59,669 nt of DNA from Gemmata sp. (GTDB lineage: Bacteria; Planctomycetota; Planctomycetia; Gemmatales; Gemmataceae), in assembly GCA_025055115.1 (NCBI GenBank), contig JANWYJ010000020.1:1-59669 (forward strand). The letters run 5' to 3'. Below the pieces are notes generated by a model. The model was not told the origin of the DNA, ran no database searches, and saw only the letters and a list, made by a program, of their open reading frames with translations. The translations under genes and the position numbers were made by a program. Of this stretch, positions 5,930 through 59,265 are shown one piece after another (position 1 is the stretch's first letter; every line of letters begins with the position of its first letter).

Positions 5930-6003
<74 letters not shown>

Positions 6004-41662: not shown

Positions 41663-41696
41663 TGTGTAAGCTTGTGTGGGATTCGCTAGGGCATCC

Positions 41697-43007
41697 ATGA
41701 ACCCTGCCAGCGCAGTAGCGAGTGAGGCGACGACGACGCCTCTGGAGCGTCTGCGATCCCTATTGGCAGAAGTTTTGCCGACGAATCGGTTTTATGCTCA
41801 GAAATTCGGCACGTCCACCCCTCCGCCCCTGCGTTCGTGGGCCGACTTGCAGCAATTGCCGTTCACCACGAAAGCAGAACTGCTCGCCGACCAGCAGCAA
41901 CATCCCCCTTACGGAAGTAATCTCACCTACCCTGTGTCGTGTTATTCACGGCTACACCAAACCTCGGGGACCAGCACCGGGCAACCCCTGCGTTGGCTGG
42001 ATACGCCTACATCGTGGGAGTGGATTCTGGACTGTTGGCGGCAGCATTATCAACGTATCGGTTTGACGGCACAGGACCGGGTGTTCTTCCCCTTCTCGTT
42101 TGGGCCGTTTTTAGGTTTTTGGAGTGCGTTTGAATCGGCGGCGCGACTGGGGGCCTTCGTTGCACCCGGCGGCGGGATGAGTAGCCTGGCCCGCCTACGA
42201 TTCATCCTGGACCACGGCATCACGGTGGTTTTTGCCACCCCCACGTATGCTCTGCATCTGGCGGACCTGGCAGCGCGGGAAAAGATCGACCTGGCCAACA
42301 GCCTGGTGCGGGCCTTGGTCGTCGCCGGGGAACCGGGGGGGAGTATCCCCGCGACGCGGCAACGGATCGCCTCGGCGTGGGGAGCGCGGGTGTACGATCA
42401 TTTCGGGCTGACGGAAGTCGGGCCTGTGGCTATTGAAGCCACCGATCGCCCCGGCAGTTTAGAGATTCTCGAAAAGGAGTATCTGGCAGAAGTGGTCGAT
42501 ACTGCCACCGGCGAACCGGTCGGGGCCGGGGAGGTGGGCGAATTGGTACTGACGAACCTTGGGCGGCTCGGAAGCCCGCTGATCCGCTATCGCACCGGGG
42601 ATTGGGTTCGTCTGGCGGAAGGATCGGGCGCCACGGGTGACCGGCACCAGCGTTTGGAAGGTGGAATCCTGGGCCGGGTGGATGATATGATTCATATCCG
42701 GGGGAATAACGTCTATCCCAGTGCGATTGAAGGGATTGTCCGTCGCTTTGCGGAGGTTGTGGAGTTTCGCCTGCATGTGGATCAAAGCCATCCCTTGGCC
42801 GACTTGCGCTTGGAGATCGAACCAACCCCCGGAGCCGAAGCTACGATTGCCGATGCCATCAGCCGGGCGATTCGCGACGAACTGTTGTTTCGGGTGGACG
42901 TCACCCTGGTGCCCCCCGGGTCCTTGCCGCGATTTGAAATGAAAGCTCGTCGCGTGGTCCGCATCCCCCCCCGCGCGACACCGGAGAGGATTTCTCCCCA
43001 CCAATAG
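41697..43007 (+). CDS. Phenylacetate-CoA ligase-like adenylate-forming enzyme
   Basis: The start at 41697 (MNPASAVASEATT) gives 436 residues, the usual size of PaaK-type ligases. The ATP-binding loop is HQTSGTSTGQPLRW (about residues 84-97), the motif equivalent to A5 is YDHFGLTEVGPVAIE, the ribose-binding region is IRYRTGDWVRLAEG, and GRVDDMIHIRGNNVYPSAIE precedes a complete C-terminal subdomain (LPRFEMKARRVVRIP). These features support activation of an aryl or acyl carboxylate as the adenylate and then the CoA thioester. No paa genes flank it, so phenylacetate itself is not implied. It opens the plus-strand run that continues to 57622. Confidence 0.88.
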   Translation: MNPASAVASEATTTPLERLRSLLAEVLPTNRFYAQKFGTSTPPPLRSWADLQQLPFTTKAELLADQQQHPPYGSNLTYPVSCYSRLHQTSGTSTGQPLRWLDTPTSWEWILDCWRQHYQRIGLTAQDRVFFPFSFGPFLGFWSAFESAARLGAFVAPGGGMSSLARLRFILDHGITVVFATPTYALHLADLAAREKIDLANSLVRALVVAGEPGGSIPATRQRIASAWGARVYDHFGLTEVGPVAIEATDRPGSLEILEKEYLAEVVDTATGEPVGAGEVGELVLTNLGRLGSPLIRYRTGDWVRLAEGSGATGDRHQRLEGGILGRVDDMIHIRGNNVYPSAIEGIVRRFAEVVEFRLHVDQSHPLADLRLEIEPTPGAEATIADAISRAIRDELLFRVDVTLVPPGSLPRFEMKARRVVRIPPRATPERISPHQ

Positions 43008-43028
43008 CTCTTGATGATGGAGAAAACT

Positions 43029-45386: not shown

Positions 45387-45412
45387 CCGTGAACGTCCAA
45401 TAGCTGTGAACG
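45383..45412. repeat. 13-bp repeat spanning the stop codon of the propeller gene
   Basis: ATAGCCGTGAACG (45383-45395), which contains the TAG stop, recurs with one mismatch at 45400-45412. It is a small instance of the gene-end duplication pattern. Confidence 0.75.
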
Positions 45413-45500
45413 GCTCAGGGCGGCGGCAGAAGCATTGCCCCGCCCCAACGAATGAATCGCACCGGACTTTCACTCTTTCTCCGACAGAGGGCCTCGACGA

Positions 45501-47207
45501 ATGCCTCGCACTCTGACCAAACAGCTCATCTTGGGCAGCGCCGCGGTGGTGGCCTTCGGCCTGGCCGCGGTTTTCTCGATCGGCTCGCCCACAAGCGCTG
45601 AATCGCAAGCCGCGCCGACAGCCGCCGGCCCCAGCGACCACGTCATGATGGGCGGCACGATCTTCCGCAACATGATCAACACCATCGACAAAGGCATCGC
45701 GGACAAATTCGCCCCCGAAGGCGACCAACTGCTGTGGAAAGCCAGCCTCGGCAGCCGCGCCTACGGCGGCCCTGTCATCGCCGGCGGCAAAATCTTCGTC
45801 GGCACCAACAACGAGCAACCCCGCAACAAACGGGATGTTGACAAAAACGGCCAACCCATCGATCGCGGCATCCTCATGTGCTTTGAGGAAAAAACCGGCC
45901 GCTTCCTCTGGCAAGCCGTGCACGACAAATTGCCCAGCGGCCTGGTCCACGATTGGCCCAAAGAAGGTATCTGCTCTACGCCTTTGGTGGAAAACGACCG
46001 CGTCTACTACGTCTCCAATCGCTGCACGGTCGTTTGTGCCGATGTCGAAGGGTTCGCCAACGGCAATCAGGGTATCGAAACCGAGAAATACAAAGACCCC
46101 ACCGATGCCGACATCATTTGGGAATACGATATGATGAAGGAACTCAACGTATTCCCCCACAACATGTCGGCCTGCTCGCCGTTGATTGTCGGCGATATTC
46201 TTTACATCGTGACCGCCAACGGCGTCGATGAGGGGCACATCAATATTCCCTCGCCGGAAGCGCCAAGCTTCATCGCCCTCGACAAAAAGACCGGCAAACT
46301 GCTGTGGAAAAGCGCCGCCCCCGGCAAGAATATCATGCATGGGCAATGGTCCAACCCCGTGTATGCGGAGATTGATGGCGTCCGCCAGGTGATTTTCCCC
46401 GGGGGTGATGGATGGCTGCGATCGTATGTCCCCGAAACGGGGGAAGAATTGTGGCGTTTCGACTGCAACCCCAAAGATGCGGTCTATGAACTGGGTGGCA
46501 CCGGAACCCGCAACGACTTCATCGGCACCCCGGTGGTTGCCAATGGCAAAATCTACATCGGCGTCGGCCAAGACCCCGAACACAGCACCGGGATTGCCAA
46601 CTTCTTCTGCATTGCGCCGAAAAAAGACAAACGCGGCGACATTTCGAAATACCTCGAAACCCGCGAAAAAGGGCCTGACGGCAAAGACAAGATCGGAGAG
46701 AAGCCCAACCCCAATTCGTGTGAATTGTGGCGCTACGGCGGTGTCGAAGACCGCAACCACGCCCCCCGCGACTTCAAGTTCGGCCGGACCATGTCGACCG
46801 CCTGCGTCATCGACGGTCTCGTGTACATCTCCGAGTTGCAGGGCTTTTTGCACTGCCTCGATGCCGAAACCGGCAAACACTACTGGTATTACGACACAAA
46901 AGCGTCGATCTGGGGTTCGCCCTATTATGTCGATGGCAAAGTCTTTCTCGCCACCGACTCCGGCGACCTGTTTATCTTCAAACACGACAAGGACAAAATG
47001 GTTTACGACCCCATCGAAGCTGGGAAAAACGCTGCCACCCAGAAAGAGGCCCGCGCCCGGCAACGGGAGGTCCAAAAGAAAGTCGAGGAGCGCTTCTTGC
47101 TGTCGAAAGTCGAGTTCGACGCCCCGATCCGCTCCACCCCAGTGGTCGCGAACGGGGTCTTGTATGTCATGACGGAGAAAACGCTCTACGCCCTGAAGAC
47201 CAAGTAA
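45501..47207 (+). CDS. Secreted PQQ-like beta-propeller protein
   Basis: A 568-residue exported protein: a signal peptide (LILGSAAVVAFGLAAVFSIG) is followed by a propeller with blades such as GGPVIAGGKIFVGTNNEQPR, PSFIALDKKTGKLLWKSAAP, QGFLHCLDAETGKHYWYYDT and SPYYVDGKVFLATDSGDLFI. The last part has a charged helix (TQKEARARQREVQKKVEERF) and one more blade. Compared with the propellers at 3562 and 51220 it is longer and has charged insertions (LETREKGPDGKDKIGEKPNP). It lies 114 bp downstream of another propeller gene. No quinoprotein catalytic residues could be identified. Confidence 0.87.
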   Translation: MPRTLTKQLILGSAAVVAFGLAAVFSIGSPTSAESQAAPTAAGPSDHVMMGGTIFRNMINTIDKGIADKFAPEGDQLLWKASLGSRAYGGPVIAGGKIFVGTNNEQPRNKRDVDKNGQPIDRGILMCFEEKTGRFLWQAVHDKLPSGLVHDWPKEGICSTPLVENDRVYYVSNRCTVVCADVEGFANGNQGIETEKYKDPTDADIIWEYDMMKELNVFPHNMSACSPLIVGDILYIVTANGVDEGHINIPSPEAPSFIALDKKTGKLLWKSAAPGKNIMHGQWSNPVYAEIDGVRQVIFPGGDGWLRSYVPETGEELWRFDCNPKDAVYELGGTGTRNDFIGTPVVANGKIYIGVGQDPEHSTGIANFFCIAPKKDKRGDISKYLETREKGPDGKDKIGEKPNPNSCELWRYGGVEDRNHAPRDFKFGRTMSTACVIDGLVYISELQGFLHCLDAETGKHYWYYDTKASIWGSPYYVDGKVFLATDSGDLFIFKHDKDKMVYDPIEAGKNAATQKEARARQREVQKKVEERFLLSKVEFDAPIRSTPVVANGVLYVMTEKTLYALKTK

Positions 47208-47336
47208 CGCCGCAGGCGGACGGCGTGGGGGACCGACCCAGTTACACCCACGCTGAGCCTGCGGTTATCCACCATGGAAATTCCGTCTGCTTCGAGAATT
47301 CGTTGCCTTACCACGCCTTACACGGGAGAGAAGGTC

Positions 47337-48521
47337 GTGAAAGACACGCCCGGCAAGCCGGCCCCTGTCACCGGCGCGACATTGGAAGAAAAGATTAAAA
47401 ACGCCAAAGCCCAACTCGACGCCCACATCCGGGAGGTCGTGCGCTGGCACTTCAGCCCGGAAACCGGCACCCCCTTCTGGCTCGAAAAAGCCAAAGAATT
47501 CGACTTCGACCCCCTCAAAGATATTAACGGCTGGGAAGACATTAAGAAATTCCCCATTTTCCAAGACGATTGGCTCCGCGGTGGCCCCGTGCGCCGGTGG
47601 GTCCCCAAAGGCTATGCCGACCGGCCCATTTATGTCTTTGAAACCGGGGGCACCACCGGTCTGCCCAAAACCCGGGTTGTCATCGACGACTTCCGCATCG
47701 ACTACGAAATGATGTCCGACACCCTGCCGGACGAATACTTCCCCCGTGGCTCCAACTGGCTCATGCTGGGGCCGAGTGGTCCCCGCCGCTTGCGCCTGGC
47801 TATTGAACATTTGGCCCAATATCGCGGCGGTATTTGCTTCTGCGTCGATCTCGACCCCCGCTATGTGGTCCGTTGCCTCAAAGATCGCAAAATTGCGGAA
47901 GCCCAATACTACAAAGACCATGTGATCGACCAAGCCCTGACCATCCTCGCCGGTGGGCACGACATCAAATGCATGTTCACCACACCCAAGCTGTTGGCCG
48001 GTTTGGATGAGGCGCTGCGGGCCGGCAAGCTCGAAGAGAAGTACCGGTCTCTGGGTAAACCGATCCCACCAGGCGGATTACGTTCCATCCGCAGCACAGG
48101 CATCACCGGTATCTTCTCCGGAGGCACCGAGTTCACCCCCCAATTCACCCGCGAAGCCTACGAAGAAATGCTCGACAACGGGGCCGTCTACATGACCCCC
48201 ACCTACGGCAACACCCTCATGGGCCTGGCCTGCTCCAAGCCCATCGGCCCACACGACAACTTCAAAATCACCTACTACGCCCCCCAACCACGCGCAGTGA
48301 TCGAAGTGGTCAATCCGAAAAACTACAACGAACTGGTGCCCTACGGCTGCACCGGACGAGTGCTGCTGAGCACTTTCACCAAAGAATTCTTTGTGCCGCG
48401 CTTCCCCGAACGCGACGAAGGCGAACGTGAACCGCCCTACGAAAAGTACCCCTGGGATGGTGTCAGCGGTGTGCGACCCTTCAGTGAATTGGCAGCCACT
48501 ACGGTGGTTGGTGTCTATTGA
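47337..48521 (+). CDS. EhpF-like adenylate-forming enzyme (acyl/aryl-acid activating)
   Basis: GTG at 47337, just after GGGAGAGAAGG, gives 394 residues; an ATG at 47274 would add 21 residues of odd composition. Early sequence includes VVRWHFSPETGTPFWLEKAK. The P-loop-like ATP motif is YVFETGGTTGLPKTRVV, and SIRSTGITGIFSGGTEFTPQ and VYMTPTYGNTLMGLAC follow as the nucleotide pocket. The whole resembles EhpF of the griseoluteate pathway and the LuxE acyl-protein synthetases. The small C-terminal subdomain of standard ligases is reduced. It is followed 59 bp later by a LuxC/EhpG-like reductase, the same pairing as in the ehp cluster, supporting acid activation for reduction. Confidence 0.75.
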   Translation: MKDTPGKPAPVTGATLEEKIKNAKAQLDAHIREVVRWHFSPETGTPFWLEKAKEFDFDPLKDINGWEDIKKFPIFQDDWLRGGPVRRWVPKGYADRPIYVFETGGTTGLPKTRVVIDDFRIDYEMMSDTLPDEYFPRGSNWLMLGPSGPRRLRLAIEHLAQYRGGICFCVDLDPRYVVRCLKDRKIAEAQYYKDHVIDQALTILAGGHDIKCMFTTPKLLAGLDEALRAGKLEEKYRSLGKPIPPGGLRSIRSTGITGIFSGGTEFTPQFTREAYEEMLDNGAVYMTPTYGNTLMGLACSKPIGPHDNFKITYYAPQPRAVIEVVNPKNYNELVPYGCTGRVLLSTFTKEFFVPRFPERDEGEREPPYEKYPWDGVSGVRPFSELAATTVVGVY

Positions 48522-48580: not shown

Positions 48581-50017
48581 ATGATTCAGATACCAGCCCT
48601 CCGCTTCGGCAAAACCTACACCAGCCTCGACAAAGCCCAACTGATTCACCACGTCACCGGCGAGCCGATCGCGGAAGTCAGCCAGGTGACAGGTTCGATG
48701 ATTGCCCGTGATTTGGCCAACATGGCCCGGGCGCACCGCGAACTGCGTTCCATCCCCATTCGCGACATTCTGGCGATGTATGCCAAAGCCGCGGACTACT
48801 TTCTGAACTCTGCTCTGCCCTGTGGCGACGCCGAGCTGACCTACGATCAATACATCCGCCATCTGTCCGCGACTACCGGCAGCCCCATCGTTTTCTGCGA
48901 TCGCAACGCGCGGAAGGTGCATTATGTTCTTTCCCACATTGAGGAGGTGATCGGCGGTTTAACCCGCGGATTGCCGCTCGAAGCCTTCGACAAAGGCTAC
49001 ACCACCGCCGGGGGACGGATGCAGGCCTTTTTCCCCACGACCGATGTGTTGGGGGCCGTCTTGCCGTCGAACTCACCGGGCGTTCACTCGCTATGGGTAC
49101 CGACGATTGCCTTCAAAATCCCCCTGCTGTTGAAGCCTGGCCGCGAAGAGCCGTGGACGCCCTACCGGGTCATTCAAGCCTTCATCAAAGCTGGCATTCC
49201 GGCCACCGTGATGGGTTTCCTCCCGACCGACCATGCCGGAAGTGCTGATATATTAAGGCTTTGTGGCCGCAGCATGGCCTTCGGCGACGATCGCAGCATG
49301 GCCCCGTACAAAAACGATCCGCGCGTTGAAATCCACGGCACCGGGTACTCGAAAATTCTCATCGGGGCCGACCAGGCCGACCGTTGGGAAGAGCACCTCG
49401 ACGTTCTGGTTGAAGCGGTCGCGGCCAACGGGGGCCGAGCGTGCGTCAACACCAGCGCGATTTGGACGCCCAAAAACGCCGACGCCATCGCCTGGGGTAT
49501 GGCCAAGCGCTTGGCCACGGTCAAACCGCGTCCGTGGGACGATCCGCAGTGCGAAATCAGCGCCTTCGCCAAGCCGGAAGTGGCCGAAGCGATCAACAAC
49601 ATGGTGGACGAGGGATTGAAAACGCCCGGTGCCCGCGACGTGACCCAGGAGGTCCGCGGCACCCCCCGGTTGGTGAAAGAGGGCCGCTGCGCCTGGCTGT
49701 TACCCACGGTGATCCGCTGCGATTCCCCCGACCATCCGTTGGCGAATAAGGAGTTTTTGTTCCCCTACACGAGTGTCATAGAATATCCTCACGCCGACTT
49801 GCTCCAGCGGATCGGCTATACCCTTGCGGCCACAGCACTAACCGAAGACCCCGCATTCATTGCGGAGTGTATGGGGTGCGCGAATATTGAACGACTCAAC
49901 ATCGGGCCGCTCCCCACCAACCGGTTGACTTGGGACCAGCCGCATGAAGGGAATTTGTTCACCCACCTCTATAAGCAACGAGCCCTCCAGTTTGCGCACG
50001 CCGTCACCGCGGCTTAA
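48581..50017 (+). CDS. LuxC/EhpG-like acyl reductase (aldehyde dehydrogenase superfamily)
   Basis: A 478-residue member of the aldehyde dehydrogenase superfamily. The nucleotide-binding region includes DVLGAVLPSNSPGVHSLWVP and KPGREEPWTPYRVIQAFIKA. The catalytic cysteine is Cys288 in ANGGRACVNTSAIWTP. The late motif is NKEFLFPYTSVIEYPHADLL. The overall pattern matches LuxC-type reductases, which take an activated acyl group onto cysteine and reduce it to the aldehyde with NAD(P)H. Its position directly after the EhpF-like gene and overlapping the alcohol dehydrogenase gene suggests sequential activation, reduction to aldehyde and reduction to alcohol. Confidence 0.82.
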   Translation: MIQIPALRFGKTYTSLDKAQLIHHVTGEPIAEVSQVTGSMIARDLANMARAHRELRSIPIRDILAMYAKAADYFLNSALPCGDAELTYDQYIRHLSATTGSPIVFCDRNARKVHYVLSHIEEVIGGLTRGLPLEAFDKGYTTAGGRMQAFFPTTDVLGAVLPSNSPGVHSLWVPTIAFKIPLLLKPGREEPWTPYRVIQAFIKAGIPATVMGFLPTDHAGSADILRLCGRSMAFGDDRSMAPYKNDPRVEIHGTGYSKILIGADQADRWEEHLDVLVEAVAANGGRACVNTSAIWTPKNADAIAWGMAKRLATVKPRPWDDPQCEISAFAKPEVAEAINNMVDEGLKTPGARDVTQEVRGTPRLVKEGRCAWLLPTVIRCDSPDHPLANKEFLFPYTSVIEYPHADLLQRIGYTLAATALTEDPAFIAECMGCANIERLNIGPLPTNRLTWDQPHEGNLFTHLYKQRALQFAHAVTAA

Positions 50018-51152
50018 CCTGCCGCCGTTCGACTTCCAACCGCTGGGGCGCGTGATTTTTGCCCCGGGGGCGATCGAACGATTGGGCGAAGCTGTGCGCT
50101 CGGTTGGTGGTACGCGGGTGTTGCTGGTCACCGACCCCGGCTTGGAGCAAGCGGGCCACCCCCAGCGGGCCATGGCCGTGATGCGCGCCGCGGGGGTTGA
50201 AGTCTTTCTCTTCGATGGTGTTAAAGAGAACCCCACCGAACGGGAAGTCGCCGCCGGCGTGACAGTCGCACGGTCGCACCACGTCGATTGCCTGGTCGCC
50301 GTCGGCGGTGGCAGCTCCATGGATTGTGCCAAAGGGATCAACTTCATCCTGACCAATGGCGGTCGCATGGCCGATTACAAGGGCCACGGCAAAGCCACGC
50401 AACCCATGCTGCCCTCGATTGGCGTTCCCACCACCGCCGGCACCGGCAGCGAAGCCCAAAGCTATGCTCTGATCACCGACGAGCGAACCCACCTCAAAAT
50501 GGCCTGCGGGGATAAGAAAGCCGCCTTCCGGGTCGCCATTCTCGATCCGGAACTGACCCATTCGCAACCGCGCCATGTCACCGCCGTCACGGGCATCGAT
50601 GCGATTGCCCACGCCATCGAGTCCTACGTCTGCACCAAGCGTAATGCCGTATCCTCGATGTGTGCCCGCGCGGCCTTTGCGTACCTGGAAGCCAACTTCG
50701 AGCGTGTCCTCAAGTCGCCCCAGGATGCCGCCGCCCGCGCCGCGATGCAGATTGGCGCGCATCTGGCCGGCATGGCCATCGAAAACGCCATGCTCGGTGT
50801 CTGCCACAGTTGCGCCAACCCCCTTACCGCCCACTATGGCCTCACCCACGGGGTCGCTATTGGGTTGATGCTGCCCCACGTCATTCGTTTCAACGCGGCG
50901 GTCGTGGATGACCTATACGCCGATTTGATCCACGCCCCGGGTTTCAGTCGACCCGCCGGAGAAGTCCTCGCCAACCGGATTACCGAACTGACCCGGGCCG
51001 CAGGGCTGCCGCAATCGCTTCGCGAATGTGGCGTCAGTGATACGATACTCGCGGTACTCGCCGAAGAAGCGAATCAGCAGTGGACAGCCCGATTCAACCC
51101 CCGCCCGGTGAGCGAAACCGACATTCTCCAACTCTATCAAGCCGCCTGGTAG
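49944..51152 (+). CDS. Iron-containing (group III) alcohol dehydrogenase
   Basis: A 402-residue protein by the ATG at 49944, overlapping the reductase gene by 74 bp; a TTG at 49992 or GTG at 50053 would shorten the overlap and may be the true start. The cofactor site is VAVGGGSSMDCAKGINFI, followed by PSIGVPTTAGTGSEAQSYAL. The iron-site region is TGIDAIAHAIESYVCTKRN with histidine and aspartate ligands, and later histidines lie in GVCHSCANPLTAHYGLTHGV, which fits the family pattern. It would interconvert aldehyde and alcohol with NAD(P)H. The tight overlap indicates co-expression with the LuxC-like reductase. Confidence 0.9.
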   Translation: MKGICSPTSISNEPSSLRTPSPRLNLPPFDFQPLGRVIFAPGAIERLGEAVRSVGGTRVLLVTDPGLEQAGHPQRAMAVMRAAGVEVFLFDGVKENPTEREVAAGVTVARSHHVDCLVAVGGGSSMDCAKGINFILTNGGRMADYKGHGKATQPMLPSIGVPTTAGTGSEAQSYALITDERTHLKMACGDKKAAFRVAILDPELTHSQPRHVTAVTGIDAIAHAIESYVCTKRNAVSSMCARAAFAYLEANFERVLKSPQDAAARAAMQIGAHLAGMAIENAMLGVCHSCANPLTAHYGLTHGVAIGLMLPHVIRFNAAVVDDLYADLIHAPGFSRPAGEVLANRITELTRAAGLPQSLRECGVSDTILAVLAEEANQQWTARFNPRPVSETDILQLYQAAW

Positions 51153-51219: not shown

Positions 51220-52314
51220 ATGACCCGTGTTGTGATCGCCGTCCTCCTTGCCGCCATCGTGCCGGCCATCAGTTGGGCCGATTGGCCACTCTTCCGTGGC
51301 GACCCCCTGATGAGCGGCACCAGCACAACGGCCAAACTCCCAGAGCAGCTGGACATCCGCTGGGAGTTTCAGACTGGAGATAGTGTCGAGGGTGCCCCGG
51401 CGATTGTCGCCGGCGTTGTCTACATTGCCTCGCTGGATAAACACCTTTACGCCCTCGATCTGGCCACGGGCCAACAAAAGTGGAAGGTGAAGTTGGGGGC
51501 CATGAAAGCCCCCCCGAGCGTTCGTGGCGACCGCGTCTATGTCGGCAATCTCGATGGCATTTTTTACTGCCTCAAAACCAGCGATGGTTCGAAAGTGTGG
51601 GAATTTGAGACGATGGGGGAAATCATCGCCGGATGCAATTTCCACGGCGATCACGTTCTCATCGGTTCTCACGATTCCACCTTCTATTGCCTCAATCGCG
51701 ACGGCAAGAAGGTGTGGGAAGTGAAGACGGATGGGCCGATCAATGGTGCCCCCGCGGTCCTGGGCGATACCACCTTCGTGGCCGGCTGTGATAGCCTTCT
51801 GCACATTCTGGATGCGAAAACAGGCCGTGAACTGGGAACCATCGAACTCGATGGCCAGGCGGCGGCCACCGCGGCCGTGGCCAACGACCACGCCTACATC
51901 GGGACGATGGCCAATACCGTGGTCGCGGTCGATCTGAAAACCAAAAAGAAAGTGTGGTCATTTGAAGCTCCGGTGCGGCAACAGCCGTTTTATGCCTCGG
52001 CGGCCGCCGCGGAGCTGATTGTCGCCGCCAGTCGCGACAAAAAGGTGTATGGTTTGGACCCCAAGACCGGTAAAGCCATCTGGAGCTTCACCACGGCGGG
52101 GCAAGTCGATGCCTCACCGGTGGTCGTGGGTGGACGGGTCTACGTCGGTTGTCTCAATGACGATGGCAATTTCTACGTTCTGGATCTCAAAACCGGTCAG
52201 AAGCTCCAAGAATTGGAATTGGATGCCGCGGTTACCGGTTCGGCGGCCGTTGGCCCGGATTGCCTGGTGGTCGGCACCGATCGCGGCAAGGTTTACTGTC
52301 TGGGCAAGAAATGA
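51220..52314 (+). CDS. Secreted PQQ-like beta-propeller protein (BamB-like)
   Basis: A 364-residue exported propeller, compact and regular. The signal peptide is MTRVVIAVLLAAIVPAISWA, followed by DWPLFRGDPLMSGTS. About seven near-identical blades follow, e.g. KHLYALDLATGQQKWKVKLG, GIFYCLKTSDGSKVWEFETM, STFYCLNRDGKKVWEVKTDG and KKVYGLDPKTGKAIWSFTTA. The strict blade repeat is like BamB or quinoprotein propellers without catalytic residues. A GAGGA site precedes the ATG. Its stop overlaps the start of the radical SAM gene (ATGA), which ties it to the following cluster. Confidence 0.9.
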   Translation: MTRVVIAVLLAAIVPAISWADWPLFRGDPLMSGTSTTAKLPEQLDIRWEFQTGDSVEGAPAIVAGVVYIASLDKHLYALDLATGQQKWKVKLGAMKAPPSVRGDRVYVGNLDGIFYCLKTSDGSKVWEFETMGEIIAGCNFHGDHVLIGSHDSTFYCLNRDGKKVWEVKTDGPINGAPAVLGDTTFVAGCDSLLHILDAKTGRELGTIELDGQAAATAAVANDHAYIGTMANTVVAVDLKTKKKVWSFEAPVRQQPFYASAAAAELIVAASRDKKVYGLDPKTGKAIWSFTTAGQVDASPVVVGGRVYVGCLNDDGNFYVLDLKTGQKLQELELDAAVTGSAAVGPDCLVVGTDRGKVYCLGKK

Positions 52315-53768
52315 ACAAGCACGGCGATGGGCTGGCTTCGGCCCGCGCCCAGCGGATTCTTGTGAGTCCTACGCATCAGGCCACCATGATGACCCTCAGC
52401 GCTGCCGAACAAGAAAAAACCGGGTTGGGTAACTACTTCATCGCCAATTACCCCCCGTTTTCCTTTTGGAAGAGCGACTTTCTTCCGGAGGCCATCGCGG
52501 CGCTCCAGCGCCCCCCCCGCCCTGGGGTACCGCTGGGGCTGTATCTGCACATCCCTTTTTGCCGCAAACGCTGCAAATTCTGCTACTTCCGCGTGTACAC
52601 GGATAAAAACGCCAACGACATCGCCACGTATCTGGATGCGCTTGTACACGAAGTTCAACTGTTGGCGCAGACGCCCTGCGTCGGCGGACGGCCGCTCGAT
52701 TACGTCTACTTCGGCGGGGGAACGCCCTCGTATCTGAGCGCCGCCCAACTCGACGATCTCATGACCCGACTGCGGGCCATCCTGCCGTGGGATTGTGCCC
52801 GGGAAGTGACCTTTGAATGCGAACCGGGCACCCTGCAAAAGCATAAATTGGAAACCCTCCGGCGGCACGGCATCACTCGCCTGAGCCTGGGGGTGGAGAA
52901 TTTCAAGCCCGAAATCCTGCAATACAACGGCCGCGCCCACCTCGAAGAAGAAATCTACCGAGCCTTCGCCTGGGCCCGCGAACTGGGTTTCCCACAAATC
53001 AACATCGACCTCATCGCCGGCATGGTGGGTGAAGATTGGGATAACTGGAAACGCTGTGTCGACAAAACCCTCGCCTTGGCTCCCGATTGCGTCACGATCT
53101 ATCAGATGGAATTGCCTTACAACACCGTCTTTTCCAAAGAAATCCAACAGCTCCAAACCCTCACCGACAGCCGCTCGCGAACGGCCCTCGAACTGGCAAC
53201 ACCATCGGCCACCCCGGGGCTAGCCCTCAGTATCGCCGATTGGCCCACCAAACGCGCCTGGGTGCACTACGCGTTCGACGAATTTGTGAAAAACGGTTAC
53301 GAAATCTCCAGTGCCACCACCGTGGTGAAGAACAAAGCCACCACACGCTTCATCTATCGGGAAGCTCTGTGGCGCGGGGCCGACATGTTCGGCACCGGCG
53401 TGGCCTCGTTCGGCCATATCAATGGTGTGCACATCCAAAATGTGGATACCTGGGAAGCCTACATCGAGAAACTGCAACATGGTCAGCTGCCCTTCGGCCG
53501 TGCCTTCCCCACCAGCGAGCGCGACCGCCTCATCCGCGAAGTGGTGTTGCTATTGAAAACGGGCCATCTCGACATCGCGTACTTCCGGGACAAATATGGC
53601 GTTGATATTCGTACCGAATTTGCCGACGTTCTCCACCGTCTGAGCCAGGAAGGTTGGCTGACCATTGGCGATGAGAGTATCGACTGCACACTCCCGGGCC
53701 TCATTCAGATCGACCGCCACCTTCCCGCATTCTTCGATCGCCGCTACATCAGTTCTCGCTATACCTAA
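52311..53768 (+). CDS. HemN-like radical SAM protein
   Basis: The ATG at 52311 overlaps the propeller stop and gives 485 residues; an internal ATG at 52386 is a possible alternative. The cluster motif CxxxCxxC is HIPFCRKRCKFCYFRVY with Cys84, Cys88 and Cys91. VYFGGGTPSYLSAAQLDDL and TFECEPGTLQKHKLETLRR are SAM-site motifs, and RLSLGVENFKPEILQYNGRAH and PQINIDLIAGMVGEDWDNW match the coproporphyrinogen oxidase-like group. It has the HemN_C-like tail (DKYGVDIRTEFADVLHRLSQ). HemN's CxC after the cluster is replaced by CYF, and no other heme genes are near, so a dedicated non-heme radical reaction in this cluster is more likely than porphyrin synthesis. Confidence 0.9.
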   Translation: MNKHGDGLASARAQRILVSPTHQATMMTLSAAEQEKTGLGNYFIANYPPFSFWKSDFLPEAIAALQRPPRPGVPLGLYLHIPFCRKRCKFCYFRVYTDKNANDIATYLDALVHEVQLLAQTPCVGGRPLDYVYFGGGTPSYLSAAQLDDLMTRLRAILPWDCAREVTFECEPGTLQKHKLETLRRHGITRLSLGVENFKPEILQYNGRAHLEEEIYRAFAWARELGFPQINIDLIAGMVGEDWDNWKRCVDKTLALAPDCVTIYQMELPYNTVFSKEIQQLQTLTDSRSRTALELATPSATPGLALSIADWPTKRAWVHYAFDEFVKNGYEISSATTVVKNKATTRFIYREALWRGADMFGTGVASFGHINGVHIQNVDTWEAYIEKLQHGQLPFGRAFPTSERDRLIREVVLLLKTGHLDIAYFRDKYGVDIRTEFADVLHRLSQEGWLTIGDESIDCTLPGLIQIDRHLPAFFDRRYISSRYT

Positions 53769-53807
53769 CTGGGGCCGTTGTTGCCCCCAGCGCAGGTGAT
53801 CAAACGT

Positions 53808-54275
53808 ATGCTCGCGTCGCGGACATTTCTGATGGGCCAATACCCGGCCGAACTGCCGGGGGAGCTGCGTTATTGCAAAAATCATATGTGGTGCCGTGTG
53901 GGTAGCGACAATATCCACACCTTGGGTTTCACCGCGTATGCCGTGCGGCTGATGCAAGATGTCTACTTTCTGGAGTGGCGCATCGAACCCGGATGGGTCA
54001 CCGCAAAACAAGAAATCGGCTTCATCGAAACCCAGAAAGCCACGTCGGGGCTGTATGCTCCCCTCAGCGGTCGCATCGTGCAGTTCAACGCCGATCTGCT
54101 CAACGATCCTGGCATAATCAACGTCGATAACTACGGCCGCGGCTGGTTGTTTCAATTCCAAGGCGACCTGCGCGATAGCCTCGACGTCAACGAATACTAC
54201 AACCACCTGGAAAGCGGCTGGGAGAATACCCAACGGCTCCTCAAAGGGCAAATCAACGCCTCCGAGAAGGACTAA
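53808..54275 (+). CDS. GcvH-like lipoyl-carrier protein
   Basis: The ATG at 53808, preceded by AGGTGA, gives 155 residues, near the size of glycine cleavage H proteins (about 130). NHMWCRVGSDNIHTLGFTAY matches the opening strands of GcvH (H..W..., G.T..A). IGFIETQKATSGLYAPLSGR aligns with the lipoylation segment, placing the modifiable lysine at residue 77, followed by LLNDPGIINVDNYGRGWLFQ, the usual GcvH ending. The start is ambiguous (TTG 53778). No gcvT or gcvP gene is in the window; it lies between a radical SAM gene and a ferredoxin-like gene. That context suggests a lipoyl carrier for another reaction. Confidence 0.85.
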   Translation: MLASRTFLMGQYPAELPGELRYCKNHMWCRVGSDNIHTLGFTAYAVRLMQDVYFLEWRIEPGWVTAKQEIGFIETQKATSGLYAPLSGRIVQFNADLLNDPGIINVDNYGRGWLFQFQGDLRDSLDVNEYYNHLESGWENTQRLLKGQINASEKD

Positions 54276-54344: not shown

Positions 54345-55439
54345 ATGGCTCGTTCGCGTGTCACGGTTGTTCTTTCGCAAGCGCCCGGCAAACACCCCGG
54401 CAAGCGGGCTTTGGAAGAAAGCATTGTGGCCGCTTTATTGATGGAACCGGAACTGGAAGTTTCGGTCGTTCCTCATCTGTACGACCTGCATCCCGATCAT
54501 ACCGGGATGCTGTTCCTCGAATCCGTCAGCGGCGATATGGTGGTTCTGTCGTGGTTATATCCCCGCGCGGCCTTCTGGCTATTGGACCGCAACGGGATTA
54601 AAGGCCATTGGGGGGCCTCCCAACTCCAACCTCCCGCCGACGAGGAGGACGAAGCCGACGCCGAGACCGATACGCCCGTCGATAAACCCGAACCCATCGG
54701 CGCCAGCGGCCCCATCCCCGAGCGCTACATCTACACCCTCGATTTGCGGGATTCCAACAAGTATGAAGATTACGTTGCCGAAGTGAAGCGCATTGCTGCG
54801 GAGTGCCGCCAGCGCCGGGCCACCCAAGCCCACGCCCACGCTGCGGAGAATCCCCCATTATTGCAACTTGGCCGAGCGCTCAGGCCGTCGTCAGCGCTGA
54901 CTTCCACTGCCCCCCCAGCACCACCGCCGGACGAACCCTCCTCCGCGGCTCTGCCGGCGTTCACACCGGAGGCGCTTTTGGCCCCCACCGGGCGGCGATG
55001 GTATCCGGTTATCGACTATAACCGCTGTACGAACTGTCTGGAATGCCTGGATTTCTGCCTCTTTGGCGTCTACGGCGTCGATGCGTTCGAGCGGATTATT
55101 GTTGAAAACCAAGACCAATGCAAAAAGGGCTGCCCCGCGTGCAGTCGCGTCTGCCCCCAGCAGGCGATTATGTTCCCCGAATACAAGTCGCCCGCCATCG
55201 CCGGGGCCAACACCGGTACGGTCGGTGGACTGAAAATCGACCTCAGCCGCCTCTTCGGCGGCGAGGCCGGCGACGCCTTGGCCCTGGCGGTGCAAGAACG
55301 CGACCGCGAACTGGTCAACGACGGCCGCGCAGCCGTCGGCATGACCGTCGGCATCCCCAAACGCCAAACTCATAAACCCCAAGCCCCCAAAGACGAACTC
55401 GATAAACTGGTCGATGACCTCGATAACCTCGGCTTGTGA
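54345..55439 (+). CDS. 4Fe-4S ferredoxin-domain protein with novel N-terminal domain
   Basis: A 364-residue protein. The N-terminal 90 residues (SRVTVVLSQAPGKHPGKRAL, VSVVPHLYDLHPDHTGMLFL, MVVLSWLYPRAAFWLLDRNG) form an alpha/beta domain not assigned to a family. An acidic and proline/alanine-rich middle (about 95-215) follows, then a cysteine-rich module: NRCTNCLECLDFCLFGVYG with Cys228, 231, 234 and 238, and QCKKGCPACSRVCPQQAI with Cys259, 263, 266 and 270. The eight cysteines suit two 4Fe-4S clusters. A charged C-terminal tail ends in DELDKLVDDLDNLGL. The GGAG site precedes the ATG. Probably an electron carrier for the neighbouring radical SAM or lipoyl-linked chemistry. Confidence 0.8.
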   Translation: MARSRVTVVLSQAPGKHPGKRALEESIVAALLMEPELEVSVVPHLYDLHPDHTGMLFLESVSGDMVVLSWLYPRAAFWLLDRNGIKGHWGASQLQPPADEEDEADAETDTPVDKPEPIGASGPIPERYIYTLDLRDSNKYEDYVAEVKRIAAECRQRRATQAHAHAAENPPLLQLGRALRPSSALTSTAPPAPPPDEPSSAALPAFTPEALLAPTGRRWYPVIDYNRCTNCLECLDFCLFGVYGVDAFERIIVENQDQCKKGCPACSRVCPQQAIMFPEYKSPAIAGANTGTVGGLKIDLSRLFGGEAGDALALAVQERDRELVNDGRAAVGMTVGIPKRQTHKPQAPKDELDKLVDDLDNLGL

Positions 55440-55774: not shown

Positions 55775-57622
55775 ATGGATGCCCAACGGCTGGCCGCCGC
55801 TTACCAAACAGCACGCGCCACTCTGCTTGCCCAACGGGTCGCGGCGGGACATTGGGTGGGCCAGTTATCAACCTCCGCCCTCTCCACGGCCACCGCGATC
55901 ATGGCGTTGCATCGGGTCGATCCTTCCGCCCATCGTGACCGCATTGCCGCCGGTCTGCGTTGGCTGGTGCGTCATCAAAACGCCGACGGCGGTTGGGGCG
56001 ATACTCCTCAGAGTCTTTCCAATATCTCCACGTCGATGTTGTGCCGGGCGGCCTTGGCCCTATGCGGGGACCACGACTACGCGCAGGCCACCGCCCGGCT
56101 CGAAAACTACCTGACCGCCCACGCCGGGGCCACGGCCACCGCCCGCGCTGCGGCGATTCGCGCCCGCTACGGGGCCGACCGCACCTTCTCCGTGCCGATT
56201 CTGATGGCCTGTGCCTTGGCGGGGTTGGTGCCCTGGAGGGAAGTCCCACGGCTGCCGTTTGAACTGGCTTGCTTGCCCCAAAGTTGGTATCGCTTCGCCC
56301 GCCTGCCGGTTGTCAGTTATGCCCTGCCTGCCCTTATCGCTATTGGCCAGTGCATTCATCATCATCGCCCGTCGTGGAATCCGCTGCGCAATGTCGTTCG
56401 CCGCCTGGCGATGGCCCCCACGCTGAAGGTCTTGCGCCGGATCCAACCTTCGACCGGCGGCTATTTGGAAGCCACACCGCTGACCAGTTTCGTCCTCATG
56501 GCGTTGGCCTCGATCCCGCGGCCGCGTACGGCCTCGGAACAGCAGGTTCTGGATCAGGGCATTCACTTCCTCATCCACTCCGTTCGGGCCGATGGCAGTT
56601 GGCCGATTGATACGAACCTCGCGACCTGGGTCACCACGGGCAGTGTCAATGCCTTAGCGGCTGCGGGTGATCTGGAGACCCTCGATTCCCAAGAGGCTAT
56701 CCGCACTTGGCTCATCCAGCAGCAATACCACAACCGCCACCCCTACACCGGAGCCGATCCGGGGGGGTGGGCCTGGACCGACCTTCCCGGCGGGGTTCCC
56801 GATGCCGACGACACCCCCGGAGCTTTACTGGCTCTTCACGCGTTGCGCGTGGCCGATACCACCATCATTCACCGTGGTCTGAAGTGGCTTCTTTCTCTCC
56901 AAAATCGCGATGGCGGATGGCCCACCTTCTGCCGCGGTTGGGGCACCTTGCCGTTTGATCGAAGCGGCACCGATTTGACCGCCCATGCCCTGCGCGCCCT
57001 TCATGCCTGGCGAGGCAGTTGCCCCCCCTGTTGGCCGATTCCCCAGGCCATCGCTCGCGGACTGGATTATCTGAAGCGGCAGCAGCGGCCGGATGGTTCC
57101 TGGTTGCCCTTGTGGTTTGGCAATCAGCATGCCCCCGACGACATCAACCCCGTCTATGGGACCGCACGCGTCCTTGCCGCCTACCGCGATTTAGGACTGG
57201 CCCATTCCCCCGAATGCCAGCGGGGCGTCGCCTATCTGCGAGCTGTTCAGAATCGGGATGGCGGTTGGGGGGGCGCTGCCCAGTGCCCTTCGAGCGTTGA
57301 AGAAACGGCTTTAGCCCTCGAAGTCCTGATCGATCTGGGGAATGCGGCGGAGAACCAACCGGCTCAGCCCGCAGCCCCGCAGGGCCCGACGCCCGCGGCA
57401 GGACACTTTGCCGCTGCCATCACCTCGGGCGTAGAATGGCTGGTCGATGCGGTCGAGCGTGGGCGTTTGAGCGAACCTAGCCCGATTGGCTTCTACTTCG
57501 CCAAGTTGTGGTACTCCGAACAATTGTACCCGATCATCTTCACCGTTGCGGCATTGGGGCGAGCCTGGCAGACGCTGCGCGGCTCTTATGCCCTGAGGCT
57601 TGTTGATCACCAAACTCCGTGA
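55775..57622 (+). CDS. Class II terpene cyclase (squalene-hopene cyclase-like, DxDD)
   Basis: A 615-residue cyclase, close to the usual 620-640 of squalene-hopene cyclases. QW-type repeats recur: GHWVGQLSTSALSTATAIMA near the start, QNADGGWGDTPQSLSN, SLQNRDGGWPTFCRGW, QQRPDGSWLPLWFGNQ and VQNRDGGWGGAAQCPSSVE. The protonating DxDD motif is DADD at residues 343-346 (GGVPDADDTPGALLALH), corresponding to the DxDDTA of SHC. The C-terminus PIGFYFAKLWYSEQLYPIIF resembles the terminal SHC block. It lacks the usual SHC N-terminal wording, so the substrate (squalene, sterol precursor or another polyprenoid) is open. It ends the plus-strand cluster. Confidence 0.87.
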   Translation: MDAQRLAAAYQTARATLLAQRVAAGHWVGQLSTSALSTATAIMALHRVDPSAHRDRIAAGLRWLVRHQNADGGWGDTPQSLSNISTSMLCRAALALCGDHDYAQATARLENYLTAHAGATATARAAAIRARYGADRTFSVPILMACALAGLVPWREVPRLPFELACLPQSWYRFARLPVVSYALPALIAIGQCIHHHRPSWNPLRNVVRRLAMAPTLKVLRRIQPSTGGYLEATPLTSFVLMALASIPRPRTASEQQVLDQGIHFLIHSVRADGSWPIDTNLATWVTTGSVNALAAAGDLETLDSQEAIRTWLIQQQYHNRHPYTGADPGGWAWTDLPGGVPDADDTPGALLALHALRVADTTIIHRGLKWLLSLQNRDGGWPTFCRGWGTLPFDRSGTDLTAHALRALHAWRGSCPPCWPIPQAIARGLDYLKRQQRPDGSWLPLWFGNQHAPDDINPVYGTARVLAAYRDLGLAHSPECQRGVAYLRAVQNRDGGWGGAAQCPSSVEETALALEVLIDLGNAAENQPAQPAAPQGPTPAAGHFAAAITSGVEWLVDAVERGRLSEPSPIGFYFAKLWYSEQLYPIIFTVAALGRAWQTLRGSYALRLVDHQTP

Positions 57623-57663: not shown

Positions 57664-57739
57664 AAAAAGGCACAAATGGCTAGTTAGCAACCCTTGCACT
57701 AGGCATTTTTGTCTATTTTTGTCCAATTTTGTTGAAAAG

Positions 57740-57755
57740 TGTTCCACGTGGAACG
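57740..57755. other. Candidate parS site (ParB-binding palindrome)
   Basis: GTTCCACGTGGAAC at 57741-57754 is a perfect 14-bp palindrome, and with flanks reads TGTTCCACGTGGAACG. This matches the parS form known from Pseudomonas and is close to the general TGTTTCACGTGAAACA consensus. No parA, parB or dnaA gene lies in the window. It sits between the terpene cyclase and cas2, outside coding sequence. Confidence 0.6.
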
Positions 57756-57765
57756 TCGGCGAAGA

Positions 57766-57795
57766 TCAGAATATTAACCATCAGAATATTAACCA
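57766..57795. repeat. Perfect 15-bp tandem repeat upstream of cas2
   Basis: TCAGAATATTAACCA is repeated head to tail at 57766-57780 and 57781-57795, ending 16 bases before the cas2 start. The tract is AT-rich relative to its surroundings and may overlap the cas2 promoter or leader. Confidence 0.93.
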
Positions 57796-57811
57796 TCCGA
57801 ATGTCATCGGT

Positions 57812-58144
57812 ATGCCCTATCTGATTGCTTATGACATTGCTCATCCACGCCGGTTGCGCCGCGTGGCACGCCGATTGGAGCGGCACGCCCTGCGCTGTCA
57901 GAAGTCCGTGTTTTGGTACACCGGCACTCTCCAGTCGTTGCACGCTTTGCTCGATGAGTTGGCCGCTCTCATTGATCCCGACGCGGATGTGGTGCAAGCG
58001 TGGCCGGTGGGGGCTACTGTGCCGGTTGAAGGTTTCTTCTGTGGTCAGCCACGTTTGGCTGTTGGTCCGGCTTTGGTTGTTGCGGGTAGCTTCCGTCGCG
58101 TTGTTACACCGCCGCCGGCATCGGCTTGGCCTACTGATTGCTGA
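57812..58144 (+). CDS. cas2: CRISPR-associated endonuclease Cas2
   Basis: The start at 57812 gives 110 residues. The N-terminal strand MPYLIAYDIAHPRRLRRVAR matches the Cas2 ferredoxin-fold opening, with the active-site aspartate in YDI. RRLERHALRCQKSVFWYTG and LDELAALIDPDADVVQAWPV continue the fold. The upstream in-frame extension to 57719 would translate the parS-like palindrome and a tandem repeat, so it was rejected. The C-terminal 35 residues (about 75-110) are longer than the typical Cas2. It pairs with the Cas1 gene 116 bp downstream in the spacer-acquisition complex. Confidence 0.93.
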   Translation: MPYLIAYDIAHPRRLRRVARRLERHALRCQKSVFWYTGTLQSLHALLDELAALIDPDADVVQAWPVGATVPVEGFFCGQPRLAVGPALVVAGSFRRVVTPPPASAWPTDC

Positions 58145-58260
58145 TGTCCTTACGCTTTCCCTTTTGAACGTTGATCCTGGCAAGATGGTTTGCTCTATCG
58201 GCTCTCACGCGCAAGACCCCTTGGGACCTGTTTCTCGGACCTGCTGAGGAGAACCTCGGG

Positions 58261-59265
58261 ATGCCACCGATGACTGCTTGGCGTGCTCCTGTGGCCCATC
58301 TCGTGGGGCCGGGTGTTCTGAACATCCGCAACGGCCGCTTGGTTTTTCAGCCGCCTGAACAGGCGCCGCTGCAAATCGATGCTTCCGCTCTGACCAACCT
58401 GTATTGCTATGGTGATGTTTCGATTTCTGGGCCTGCTTTCGAAGTTCTTTTCCGCCATGGTGTCGCTGTTGCTTGGCTATCCCCTGCCGGCCATCGTTGC
58501 CGCGGACGGCTCGTCCATCCTCAGGCCACCACTACCCTTACGCGCCTTCGTCAGCACCGCGCCATCGCCCGGCCGGCGGTTCGTCTCCAATGGGCCCAGC
58601 AGCTGGTCACGGCCAAAATCACTGCCATGATCCATGCGGCCCGTCATTACCAGCGTCATTCCCATACTGCGGCGGGTGATCTTCTCGTTGAACTCCACGC
58701 CGCTTTGCCACGAGTTGCTACAGCTACGGCCTTGCCCCAGTTGTTGGGTTTCGAAGGGGCGACGACCGCGGCCTGGTTCCGCTTCTATGCCACCTTGTTC
58801 CGCACCCCGTGGACCTTTCACCAACGCACACGACGCCCCCCCACCGATCCTGTCAATGCCTTGCTCAGCCTGGGCTACACCTTGCTTCTCCAACGAGCGC
58901 AAGCCCAAGCGGAAGCCCGCGGCTTCGAAATCTACCTGGGCGGACTGCATCACTTCCGACCAGGGCGGCCTTCCCTCGCCTGCGATCTGATCGAACCGCT
59001 ACGCGTTCCCGCGGTCGATCGTTGGGTGGTGGCCATCTGTAACCAACACGAACTCAACCCCAGTCACTTCCAGTCCGACGAAGAAACCGGCGGTTTTCGC
59101 TTGCAACCCCAGTACTTTGGGCGTATCATCTACAGCTGGGAAACCCATTGGGCGAAAACCAGTTGCGATACGGTCCTTGCTCATTGGCTGGATCAATTCG
59201 AACAACTCATTCAACAGTCGGGGCAACTCCCGGCCAGTGACGATAACGAATCGGATGATCTTTGA
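58261..59265 (+). CDS. cas1: CRISPR-associated endonuclease Cas1
   Basis: ATG at 58261 with a GAGGAG site gives 334 residues, normal for Cas1. The N-terminal beta domain contains LYCYGDVSISGPAFEVLFRH and VAWLSPAGHRCRGRLVHPQ. The C-terminal helical domain has the metal residues: a glutamate in LLGFEGATTAAWFRFY, a histidine in YLGGLHHFRPGRPSLACD, and an aspartate in CDLIEPLRVPAVDRWVV. Cas1 integrates new spacers together with Cas2. The reading frame remains open to 58171, but that leader has no Cas1 sequence. The acidic tail ends DDNESDDL. The array follows after 257 bp. Confidence 0.95.
   Translation: MPPMTAWRAPVAHLVGPGVLNIRNGRLVFQPPEQAPLQIDASALTNLYCYGDVSISGPAFEVLFRHGVAVAWLSPAGHRCRGRLVHPQATTTLTRLRQHRAIARPAVRLQWAQQLVTAKITAMIHAARHYQRHSHTAAGDLLVELHAALPRVATATALPQLLGFEGATTAAWFRFYATLFRTPWTFHQRTRRPPTDPVNALLSLGYTLLLQRAQAQAEARGFEIYLGGLHHFRPGRPSLACDLIEPLRVPAVDRWVVAICNQHELNPSHFQSDEETGGFRLQPQYFGRIIYSWETHWAKTSCDTVLAHWLDQFEQLIQQSGQLPASDDNESDDL

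Follow-up and report, generated by a model that had tools for sequence, protein, structure and literature searches.

Protein-bound lipoate provides a dithiol/disulfide arm that ferries a group between active sites. Beyond the H protein of glycine cleavage (GcvH; PF01597, TIGR00527), the GcvH-like proteins include GcvH-L, which is associated with a sirtuin/macrodomain, together with the GcvH_rel_desulf (NF045810) and TIGR03077 families, none of which is named as a glycine-cleavage H protein. A role outside glycine cleavage is experimentally established for LbpA (PMC6067878, PMC10332631), in which, in the cited sections of the first of these reports, one cysteine near the N-terminus and one near the C-terminus are strictly conserved, some archaeal LbpAs excepted (PMC6067878). 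The same sections count five characterised lipoate-dependent complexes in addition to the sHdr system to which LbpA belongs (PMC6067878), while GcvH itself is described as having a relay role in the lipoate assembly of some bacteria (PMC10332631).

The window considered here, a stretch of 59,669 nucleotides, is contig C95 of a 4.93-Mb Gemmata genome (100 contigs, 98% complete), and it contains a gene for a GcvH-like protein, hereafter GcvH2. This protein shares with GcvH its family, its length range, the lipoyl-lysine motif and an H-x-W element, but it falls below the GcvH cut-offs, lies in a clade of its own, has lost the Glu of H-E-W, carries an extension and a tail, and stands in another gene context. 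Its likeness to LbpA is that of a GcvH-like lipoyl protein outside glycine cleavage with the acceptor lysine present and, for GcvH2 and its divergent form GcvH2b alike, with a possible HdrA-like partner domain alongside. The differences are that LbpA is found with sHdr genes and GcvH2 with isoprenoid genes, and that the genes for LipA and the LplA/LipB family are here on contigs other than the window; sHdr LbpA is lipoylated by sLpl(AB)/LipS1/LipS2. GcvH-L, GcvH_rel_desulf and TIGR03077 are comparable as extra GcvH-like proteins; GcvH2 scores 47.3 bits against the GcvH_rel_desulf model (cut-off 150) and 24.2 bits against TIGR03077 (cut-off 144.05), and no sirtuin or macrodomain occurs among the window neighbours scanned. 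Since LbpA is already known as a carrier outside glycine cleavage, GcvH2 is a further variant and not the first of its kind. Most probably it serves an isoprenoid-lipid pathway of planctomycetes as a lipoylated carrier, be it of electrons or of a substrate, a role in which the lipoylation, the redox role of the arm and the product are what we infer from the genes.

The GcvH2 gene and its neighbours

The genes of the neighbourhood are as follows.

41676-47207, +, outer set: a PaaK-like ligase (41676-43007) and two PQQ beta-propeller proteins (43011-45386, 45501-47207)
47274-48521, +, short AMP-forming acyl ligase-like protein, PaaK/LuxE-like (PF00501 24.2 bits, cut-off 29.9)
48581-50017, +, divergent aldehyde dehydrogenase (ALDH; PF00171 57.3 bits)
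49944-51152, +, iron-containing alcohol dehydrogenase (Fe-ADH; PF00465 165.1 bits)
51220-52314, +, PQQ/BamB-type beta-propeller protein (PF13360 203.6 bits)
52371-53768, +, HemN-like radical SAM protein with CX3CX2C, exact start uncertain (PF04055 80 bits, PF06969 27.6 bits)
53808-54275, +, GcvH2, GcvH-fold lipoyl carrier of 155 aa (PF01597 80.1 bits, alignment A1, tree)
54036-54038, +, predicted lipoylation site Lys77, codon AAA in FIETQKATSGLYAP (read off the sequence)
54345-55439, +, HdrN-ferredoxin fusion: alpha/beta N-terminal domain (about residues 1-168) and two 4Fe-4S motifs (alignment A2, Fer4 Pfam)
55775-57622, +, squalene-hopene-cyclase-like protein with DADD at residue 343 (PF13243 137.6 bits, PF13249 96.3 bits)

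GcvH2 is contained in the open reading frame 53778-54275 (+). The majority of its relatives start at the position of the ATG at 53808, which makes this codon a better start than the TTG further upstream at 53778. Its match to Pfam GCV_H has an E value of 1.6e-22, and its best match to H proteins in the PDB one of 2e-21. Lys77, in which an earlier note on this DNA had recognised a kept lipoylation lysine, is indeed invariant across the 23 sequences of alignment A1; moreover, the acceptor lysine is present in all 87 rows of a larger alignment (26 canonical, 35 GcvH2, 24 GcvH2b and 2 GcvH3). An N-terminal extension and a C-terminal tail are both conserved within the family. That the gene is a chance artefact can be excluded, because 42 of 59 nearby genomes (this genome counted) hold a match of at least 138 bits, the next match being at 74 bits.

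The flanking genes are those that the earlier note had described, namely a HemN-type radical SAM gene upstream and a gene for a two-motif 4Fe-4S protein downstream. In the former protein C64, C68 and C71 are invariant (alignment A3); it lies under the cut-offs of all 19 NCBIfam models that it matches, and its best PDB match besides HemN is the methyltransferase NocN (E 2e-26). In the latter both cysteine sets, C228, C231, C234 and C238, and C259, C263, C266 and C270, are invariant (A2). The cyclase-like protein is likewise under the NCBIfam cyclase cut-offs (TIGR01507, 136.5 v 431.1 bits); the class II DXDD motif is conserved in a 30-row alignment of its family, and its presence suggests that the protein could function in the manner of a class II cyclase. 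Directly after its gene, near the contig end, are genes for Cas2 (PF09827) and Cas1 (PF01867) at 57719-59265, and a tRNA-Arg (acg) is encoded on the minus strand at 5929-6003.

On the other side of the radical SAM gene, the Fe-ADH reading frame overlaps the gene before it, and its true start is probably later. The ALDH has a Cys in GGRACVN and is devoid of the ELGG string, motifs which we take to indicate a possible acylating (CoA/thioester) reductase. A C-terminal domain was looked for in the short acyl ligase and not found. The three PQQ/BamB-type propellers (43011-47207 and 51220-52314) are interleaved with the ligases and dehydrogenases, an association that recurs in distant genomes; in many loci, moreover, the neighbour of the radical SAM gene is a homologue of the propeller at 51220-52314.

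Separation from the glycine cleavage H proteins

A separate gcv operon, for which the earlier note had proposed a search, is present and complete on contig C93, where gcvT, gcvH, gcvPA and gcvPB stand consecutively (Pfam-supported). The same search, extended to LplA and LipA, finds LipA on C57, adjoining one LplA/LipB-family protein, and two further members of that family on C39 and C16, making three in the genome. In other words, the lipoylation machinery is present and the window gene is unneeded for glycine cleavage. Within the window, tblastn with the genome's own GcvT, GcvPA and GcvPB yields no significant match (lowest E 0.021, with GcvT; 0.52 with GcvPA), in agreement with the claim that no gcvT or gcvP lies nearby, while the genome's own GcvH matches the GcvH2 reading frame at E 3e-18. 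Against the NCBIfam GcvH equivalog and subfamily models GcvH2 is below the cut-offs (83.0 v 115.85 and 91.3 v 117), whereas the GcvH of C93 clears both, at 124.6 and 132.1.

The phylogeny is of a piece with these scores. An IQ-TREE analysis of the 87 rows, which has no LbpA row and in which the canonical rows include E. coli, Halobellus, Nonomuraea, Ruegeria, Priestia and this genome's own GcvH, yields a branch of support 100/93 with all 26 canonical rows on one side and GcvH2, GcvH2b and GcvH3, the window protein included, on the other. GcvH2 therefore stands outside the canonical clade. Together with the C93 operon, this split supports the description of GcvH2 as a lipoyl carrier outside glycine cleavage; the earlier note had named as the contrary case a position inside the canonical clade with no other gcvH in the genome, and neither half of it is what was found.

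One residue marks the division, the Glu of H-E-W, which is near the arm cavity and presumably holds the aminomethyl arm. It is present in 25 of the 26 canonical rows, the sole exception being a short, unannotated Priestia plasmid row, and in none of the 61 rows of GcvH2, GcvH2b and GcvH3. Four other residues of the H protein, E12, S67, D68 and Y70, have been tested as cavity residues, with glycine formation slowed by D68A and S67A and raised by E12A and Y70A (PMC10185560, in the part cited here). The HEW Glu is outside these four, since E12, by the numbering used here, directly precedes the His. At the corresponding positions the window GcvH2 has Asn, Ser, Gly and Tyr; the change at D68 is not family-wide, Asp or Glu being retained in 20 of 35 GcvH2 rows.

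GcvH2 is widespread among the relatives of this organism. In the 59-genome search, 41 of the 42 GcvH2 genomes have a second match at canonical level, the exception being G041, whose other matches are GcvH3 and one of 20.7 bits. Across 392 genomes of the phylum, 45 score at least 148 bits with the A1 profile, the next score being 100.6; 36 of these are in the window's class, of which 40 genomes were sampled, and the remaining nine fall in two families outside it, f54 and f57. GcvH2 was not found in the searched genomes of two families within the class (f3 and f8). A contig scan, which reaches close relatives only, returns 27 loci, all in planctomycete-titled records, the closest named being Gemmata, other Gemmataceae and some labelled Isosphaera or Singulisphaera. 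Among the best 25 of 151 plasmid records matched by GcvH2, the named features are gcvH, with one row adding a hypothetical protein. The divergent form of other families, GcvH2b (24 tree rows), mostly has the motif EGFKA and scores 84-101 bits with A1, a range that also holds other, unclassified matches, such that GcvH2b is set by tree and context.

Two genomes, G040 and G041, have in addition an extra GcvH-like gene, GcvH3, 33-34% identical and with the lysine retained, on the strand opposite to the cluster:

L078:12713-13162, +, GcvH3
L079:6893-7336, -, GcvH3

A canonical or spare glycine-cleavage H protein is thus rejected on the tree, the scores, the HEW residue and the gene context, and it is very probable that GcvH2 is not a glycine-cleavage protein.

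Two gene modules and their isoprenoid genes

The context of GcvH2 was followed through 68 close loci, consisting of the window and L036-L102, a set in which genomes are partly duplicated and many contigs are short. By clustering, GcvH2 is present in 66 of these loci, the ferredoxin protein in 57, the HemN-like radical SAM protein in 54 and the cyclase-like protein in 39, with Fe-ADH and ALDH in 19 each and the short ligase in 16. Distant genomes split this neighbourhood into two modules. Module A comprises PQQ propellers, the PaaK-like and short ligases, ALDH, Fe-ADH, the HemN-like radical SAM protein and a small gene termed 'chl', and some of its distant loci also contain homologues of the outer set (41676-47207). 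Module B, an operon with GcvH2b at its head, further comprises a CobW/G3E GTPase (PF02492, 91 bits), the small protein HdrN, a two-cluster ferredoxin, a second radical SAM protein termed rSAM2, a DUF116-polyprenyl synthase, a small alpha-alpha toroid protein and a cyclase. Two of these have the following positions.

C48:44846-46597 in the window's own genome (870 bits), also L086:612-2465, DUF116-polyprenyl synthase fusion
L160:8356-9477 and relatives, in the own genome C55:8326-9420, CobW/G3E-family GTPase, after GcvH2b in the former

The synthase matches PF00348 at 148 bits with its first Asp-rich motif conserved, and seven of its cysteines are invariant across 16 sequences. The chl gene has a weak likeness to Rv2949c-type chorismate lyase; an assignment as chorismate lyase was considered and is weak, one of three members matching PF01947 at E 0.021 and 15.3 bits against a cut-off of 22.

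Among the 24 GcvH2b loci, HdrN and the ferredoxin occur in every one, the GTPase in 23, the DUF116-polyprenyl synthase in 22, rSAM2 in 19, the toroid protein in 18 and the cyclase in 15, some absences being contig ends; in 21 of 23 the reading frame of GcvH2b overlaps or directly adjoins that of the GTPase, and gcvT or gcvPA is found in none of the 24. These counts have to be read with the sampling in mind, as 16 of the 20 loci of one set were chosen as GcvH-like and DUF116 matches on the same contig. The other four were chosen by score, two of them (L214, L216) proving to be module B and two (L215, L217) canonical GcvH beside gcvP/gcvT. Five loci, L157-L161, were chosen by GcvH score in genomes bearing the HemN-like protein, before DUF116 positions had been searched, and in all five GcvH2b, GTPase, HdrN, ferredoxin and the DUF116-polyprenyl synthase are present, with rSAM2 and the cyclase in four. 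Conversely, 20 distant loci around the HemN-like gene (L162-L181) contain the ligase in 9, ALDH in 10, Fe-ADH in 14 and chl in 12, and GcvH2b in one. These counts assign GcvH2 primarily to module B. The two modules are merged, with GcvH2 at the joint, in the window and at loci such as L086, L148 and L153. Moreover, depending on the genome, chl accompanies either module A or the polyprenyl synthase, which suggests a single pathway.

The co-occurrence of the genes points the same way. The DUF116-polyprenyl synthase is present in 97 of the 392 genomes of the phylum and in all 45 with GcvH2 (Fisher p 3e-32, shared ancestry ignored), lying within 15 kb of GcvH2 in 28 of the 45; the HemN-like radical SAM protein is present in 43 of the 45 and in 88 overall, the p-values again ignoring shared ancestry. 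The association of GcvH2 with the synthase is inflated by common ancestry. Outside the window's class, both module markers are found in 34 genomes, one alone in 24 and 17, and neither in 277; among all 392, 26 have the synthase and no HemN-like protein and 17 the reverse, which speaks against a strict pairing of the two. Within the window's own genome, the synthase on C48 has a chl match whose end is some 140 bases away, C35 encodes a relative of rSAM2 (63% identity) and C55 one of the GTPase (57%), and hence this genome holds relatives of the module genes that are missing from the window.

The link to isoprenoids follows from gene content, namely the polyprenyl synthase domain and the DXDD cyclase-like protein, and it is probable that GcvH2 serves this set of iron-sulfur/radical and isoprenoid-lipid genes. 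Such linkage leaves the action of the arm within the pathway as a proposal. A planctomycete GcvH paralogue, or a GcvH with terpenoid genes, is the subject, by title or opening lines of the abstract, of no paper among the matches listed in open-access PubMed Central, and the gene context of GcvH2 appears to be undescribed in the literature searched.

The iron-sulfur partner and the proposed use of the lipoyl arm

The downstream partner of GcvH2 bears on what the arm may do. Stand-alone HdrN has a C-x-C motif, a central Cys and a C-x-x-R motif, with C10, C12, C44, C68 and R71 invariant in 16 sequences. The N-terminal domain of the window protein is connected to it through an intermediate, in that profile comparison relates the window domain to proteins of family f54 at E 6e-21 and the f54 form to stand-alone HdrN at E 1.3e-7, with 0 of 60 shuffles reaching either score; the direct comparison of window-type domain and HdrN is weak (E 0.002 and 0.0005), such that the link runs via the f54 form. 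The HdrN-like domain of the window and its close relatives is without the cysteines of stand-alone HdrN, and any redox work of the window form must therefore rest on its ferredoxin half.

Stand-alone HdrN is in turn likely, though unproven, to be related to the N-terminal domain of HdrA, with which its cysteine pattern is similar, HdrN being without the FAD domain. The hhalign comparison of the two stands at the edge of significance, with E 0.0045 for 24 sequences and 0.00074 for three, and 1 of 150 and 0 of 150 column shuffles, respectively, reach the score. In VIA-align they superpose with Z 7.4, a value in the tool's common range, at 3.8 rmsd over 108 aligned residues with 18% identity; in a second-look structure list for HdrN, headed by a designed protein, HdrA chains rank 2, 4, 7, 8 and 21 (Z 6.2 to 7.4, 16-18% identity). 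In these structural alignments it would probably be the N-terminal domain of HdrA specifically with which HdrN aligns. Direct comparison with HdrA gives E 0.32 for the f54-type and 0.095 for the window-type domain, Foldseek with the stand-alone HdrN model (pLDDT 87) gives nothing at E 0.001 or less, and phmmer of HdrN against the PDB gives nothing meaningful. AlphaFold2 predicts the alpha/beta domain of the window protein with confidence and its ferredoxin half poorly (mean pLDDT 63). That model likewise has no Foldseek match at E 0.001 or less; its VIA-align matches are common alpha/beta folds, such as response-regulator receivers, and HdrA is absent from the best 50 rows.

The preferred reading is that GcvH2 is a dedicated lipoylated carrier which joins iron-sulfur/radical chemistry to isoprenoid-lipid synthesis; in its full redox form a probability of roughly 0.4 is assigned to it. 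An LplA/LipB-family enzyme and LipA would place lipoate on Lys77, and the arm would then alternate between its disulfide (lipoyl) and dithiol (dihydrolipoyl) forms, taking up two electrons from the adjoining HdrN-ferredoxin or passing them to it. The electron pool would feed iron-sulfur steps, namely those of the radical SAM enzymes and of the Cys-rich DUF116 domain of the polyprenyl synthase, and these steps would ready an isoprenoid, possibly with an aromatic head, for the DXDD cyclase. Electron carriage is judged the likeliest use of the arm, followed by acyl carriage and then sulfur carriage, because few neighbours are as constant as the ferredoxin protein (57 of 68 and 24 of 24 loci). Taken as a whole, a lipoate-dependent pathway in which GcvH2, a ferredoxin protein of possibly HdrA-like ancestry, radical SAM enzymes and the DUF116-polyprenyl synthase assemble an isoprenoid or aromatic-isoprenoid lipid, as yet undescribed, and cyclise it is put forward tentatively, at somewhat less than even odds.

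If true, this would bring lipoate into lipid biosynthesis, in addition to the 2-oxoacid and acetoin dehydrogenases, glycine cleavage and sulfur oxidation. Indeed, one more lipoyl carrier, which occurs in 36 of the 40 sampled genomes of the window's class and is tied in several families to genes for isoprenoid and iron-sulfur chemistry, would in itself widen the roles of lipoate. GcvH2 would also offer a way into a planctomycete pathway that is conserved and apparently undescribed, with its genes scattered among several loci. Cultured Gemmataceae offer a means of testing the prediction.

Alternatively, the arm may carry an acyl group. NocN-type radical SAM enzymes act on carrier-bound substrates, and a PaaK/LuxE-like ligase could load an organic acid, perhaps a chorismate-derived aromatic, as a dihydrolipoyl thioester, which the HemN-like enzyme would modify and the dehydrogenases release as aldehyde or alcohol. 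The NocN match of the HemN-like enzyme is in keeping with such a sequence, as are its presence in nearly every GcvH2 genome, the position of gcvH2 directly after its gene in many Gemmataceae-type loci and the ligase, ALDH and Fe-ADH genes that precede this pair in some loci. In distant families, however, the HemN-like gene and its partners are kept at another locus, where GcvH2b was seen once in 20, while GcvH2b remains with the ferredoxin and the polyprenyl synthase; moreover, 17 genomes that bear the HemN-like protein are without the module B marker. Acyl carriage is accordingly considered unlikely.

Sulfur carriage after the manner of LbpA, in which the arm would hold sulfane sulfur or act as the sulfur donor when a C-S bond of the isoprenoid product is formed, ranks below acyl carriage and is doubtful. 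It has the precedent of LbpA itself (PMC6067878, PMC10332631, as cited above) and the resemblance of HdrN to HdrA in its favour, but the LbpA cysteine pair is absent from GcvH2: the window protein has Cys23 and Cys29 only, the C-terminal cysteine being missing, and in 35 GcvH2 rows the best N-side column has 18 cysteines and the best C-side column 3. HdrA, moreover, is represented in the whole genome by a single match of 31.5 bits to model NF041778, over 60 of 771 positions, with none at E 1e-60, and no sHdr component, HdrB/CCG-family protein or sulfurtransferase is found among the window neighbours scanned. A plasmid search with HdrA returned two records, Ilyobacter and Picosynechococcus. Membership of the sHdr-LbpA group, in a comparison whose tree is without LbpA sequences, is rejected on the missing cysteine pair and the missing HdrA. 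Of the sHdr parallel that the earlier note had drawn, therefore, membership is unsupported, given the absence of the C-terminal Cys, of HdrA and of sHdr components among the neighbours scanned, and a weak functional echo stands in the resemblance of HdrN, encoded near GcvH2b in distant genomes, to the HdrA N-terminal domain.

It is highly improbable that GcvH2 is an additional H protein of glycine cleavage, or a relay for lipoyl or octanoyl groups, that is in the locus by coincidence, for although it is of the GcvH family with an intact lysine motif and, in the window, retains the equivalents of E. coli S67 and Y70 (PMC10185560, in the part cited), and although GcvH has the relay role noted above in some bacteria (PMC10332631, likewise), nearly all GcvH2 genomes hold a canonical-level second match, the HEW Glu is lost throughout, the window protein has no acid equivalent to E. 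coli D68 (variable as this position is in the family), and gcvT and gcvPA are absent from the GcvH2b loci.

The preferred reading places the ferredoxin protein beside GcvH2, and the loci vary in this regard. A ferredoxin of the window's family was not found near GcvH2 in G040 and G041, and several other GcvH2 loci, for example L063, L081, L083 and L154, are without a nearby ferredoxin match. In G040 a gene for a DGC-domain protein stands after GcvH2, where others have the ferredoxin, with a Rieske oxygenase adjoining. In genome G328 a DGC-domain protein gene (L146:5033-6046, +) lies between those of GcvH2 and the ferredoxin.
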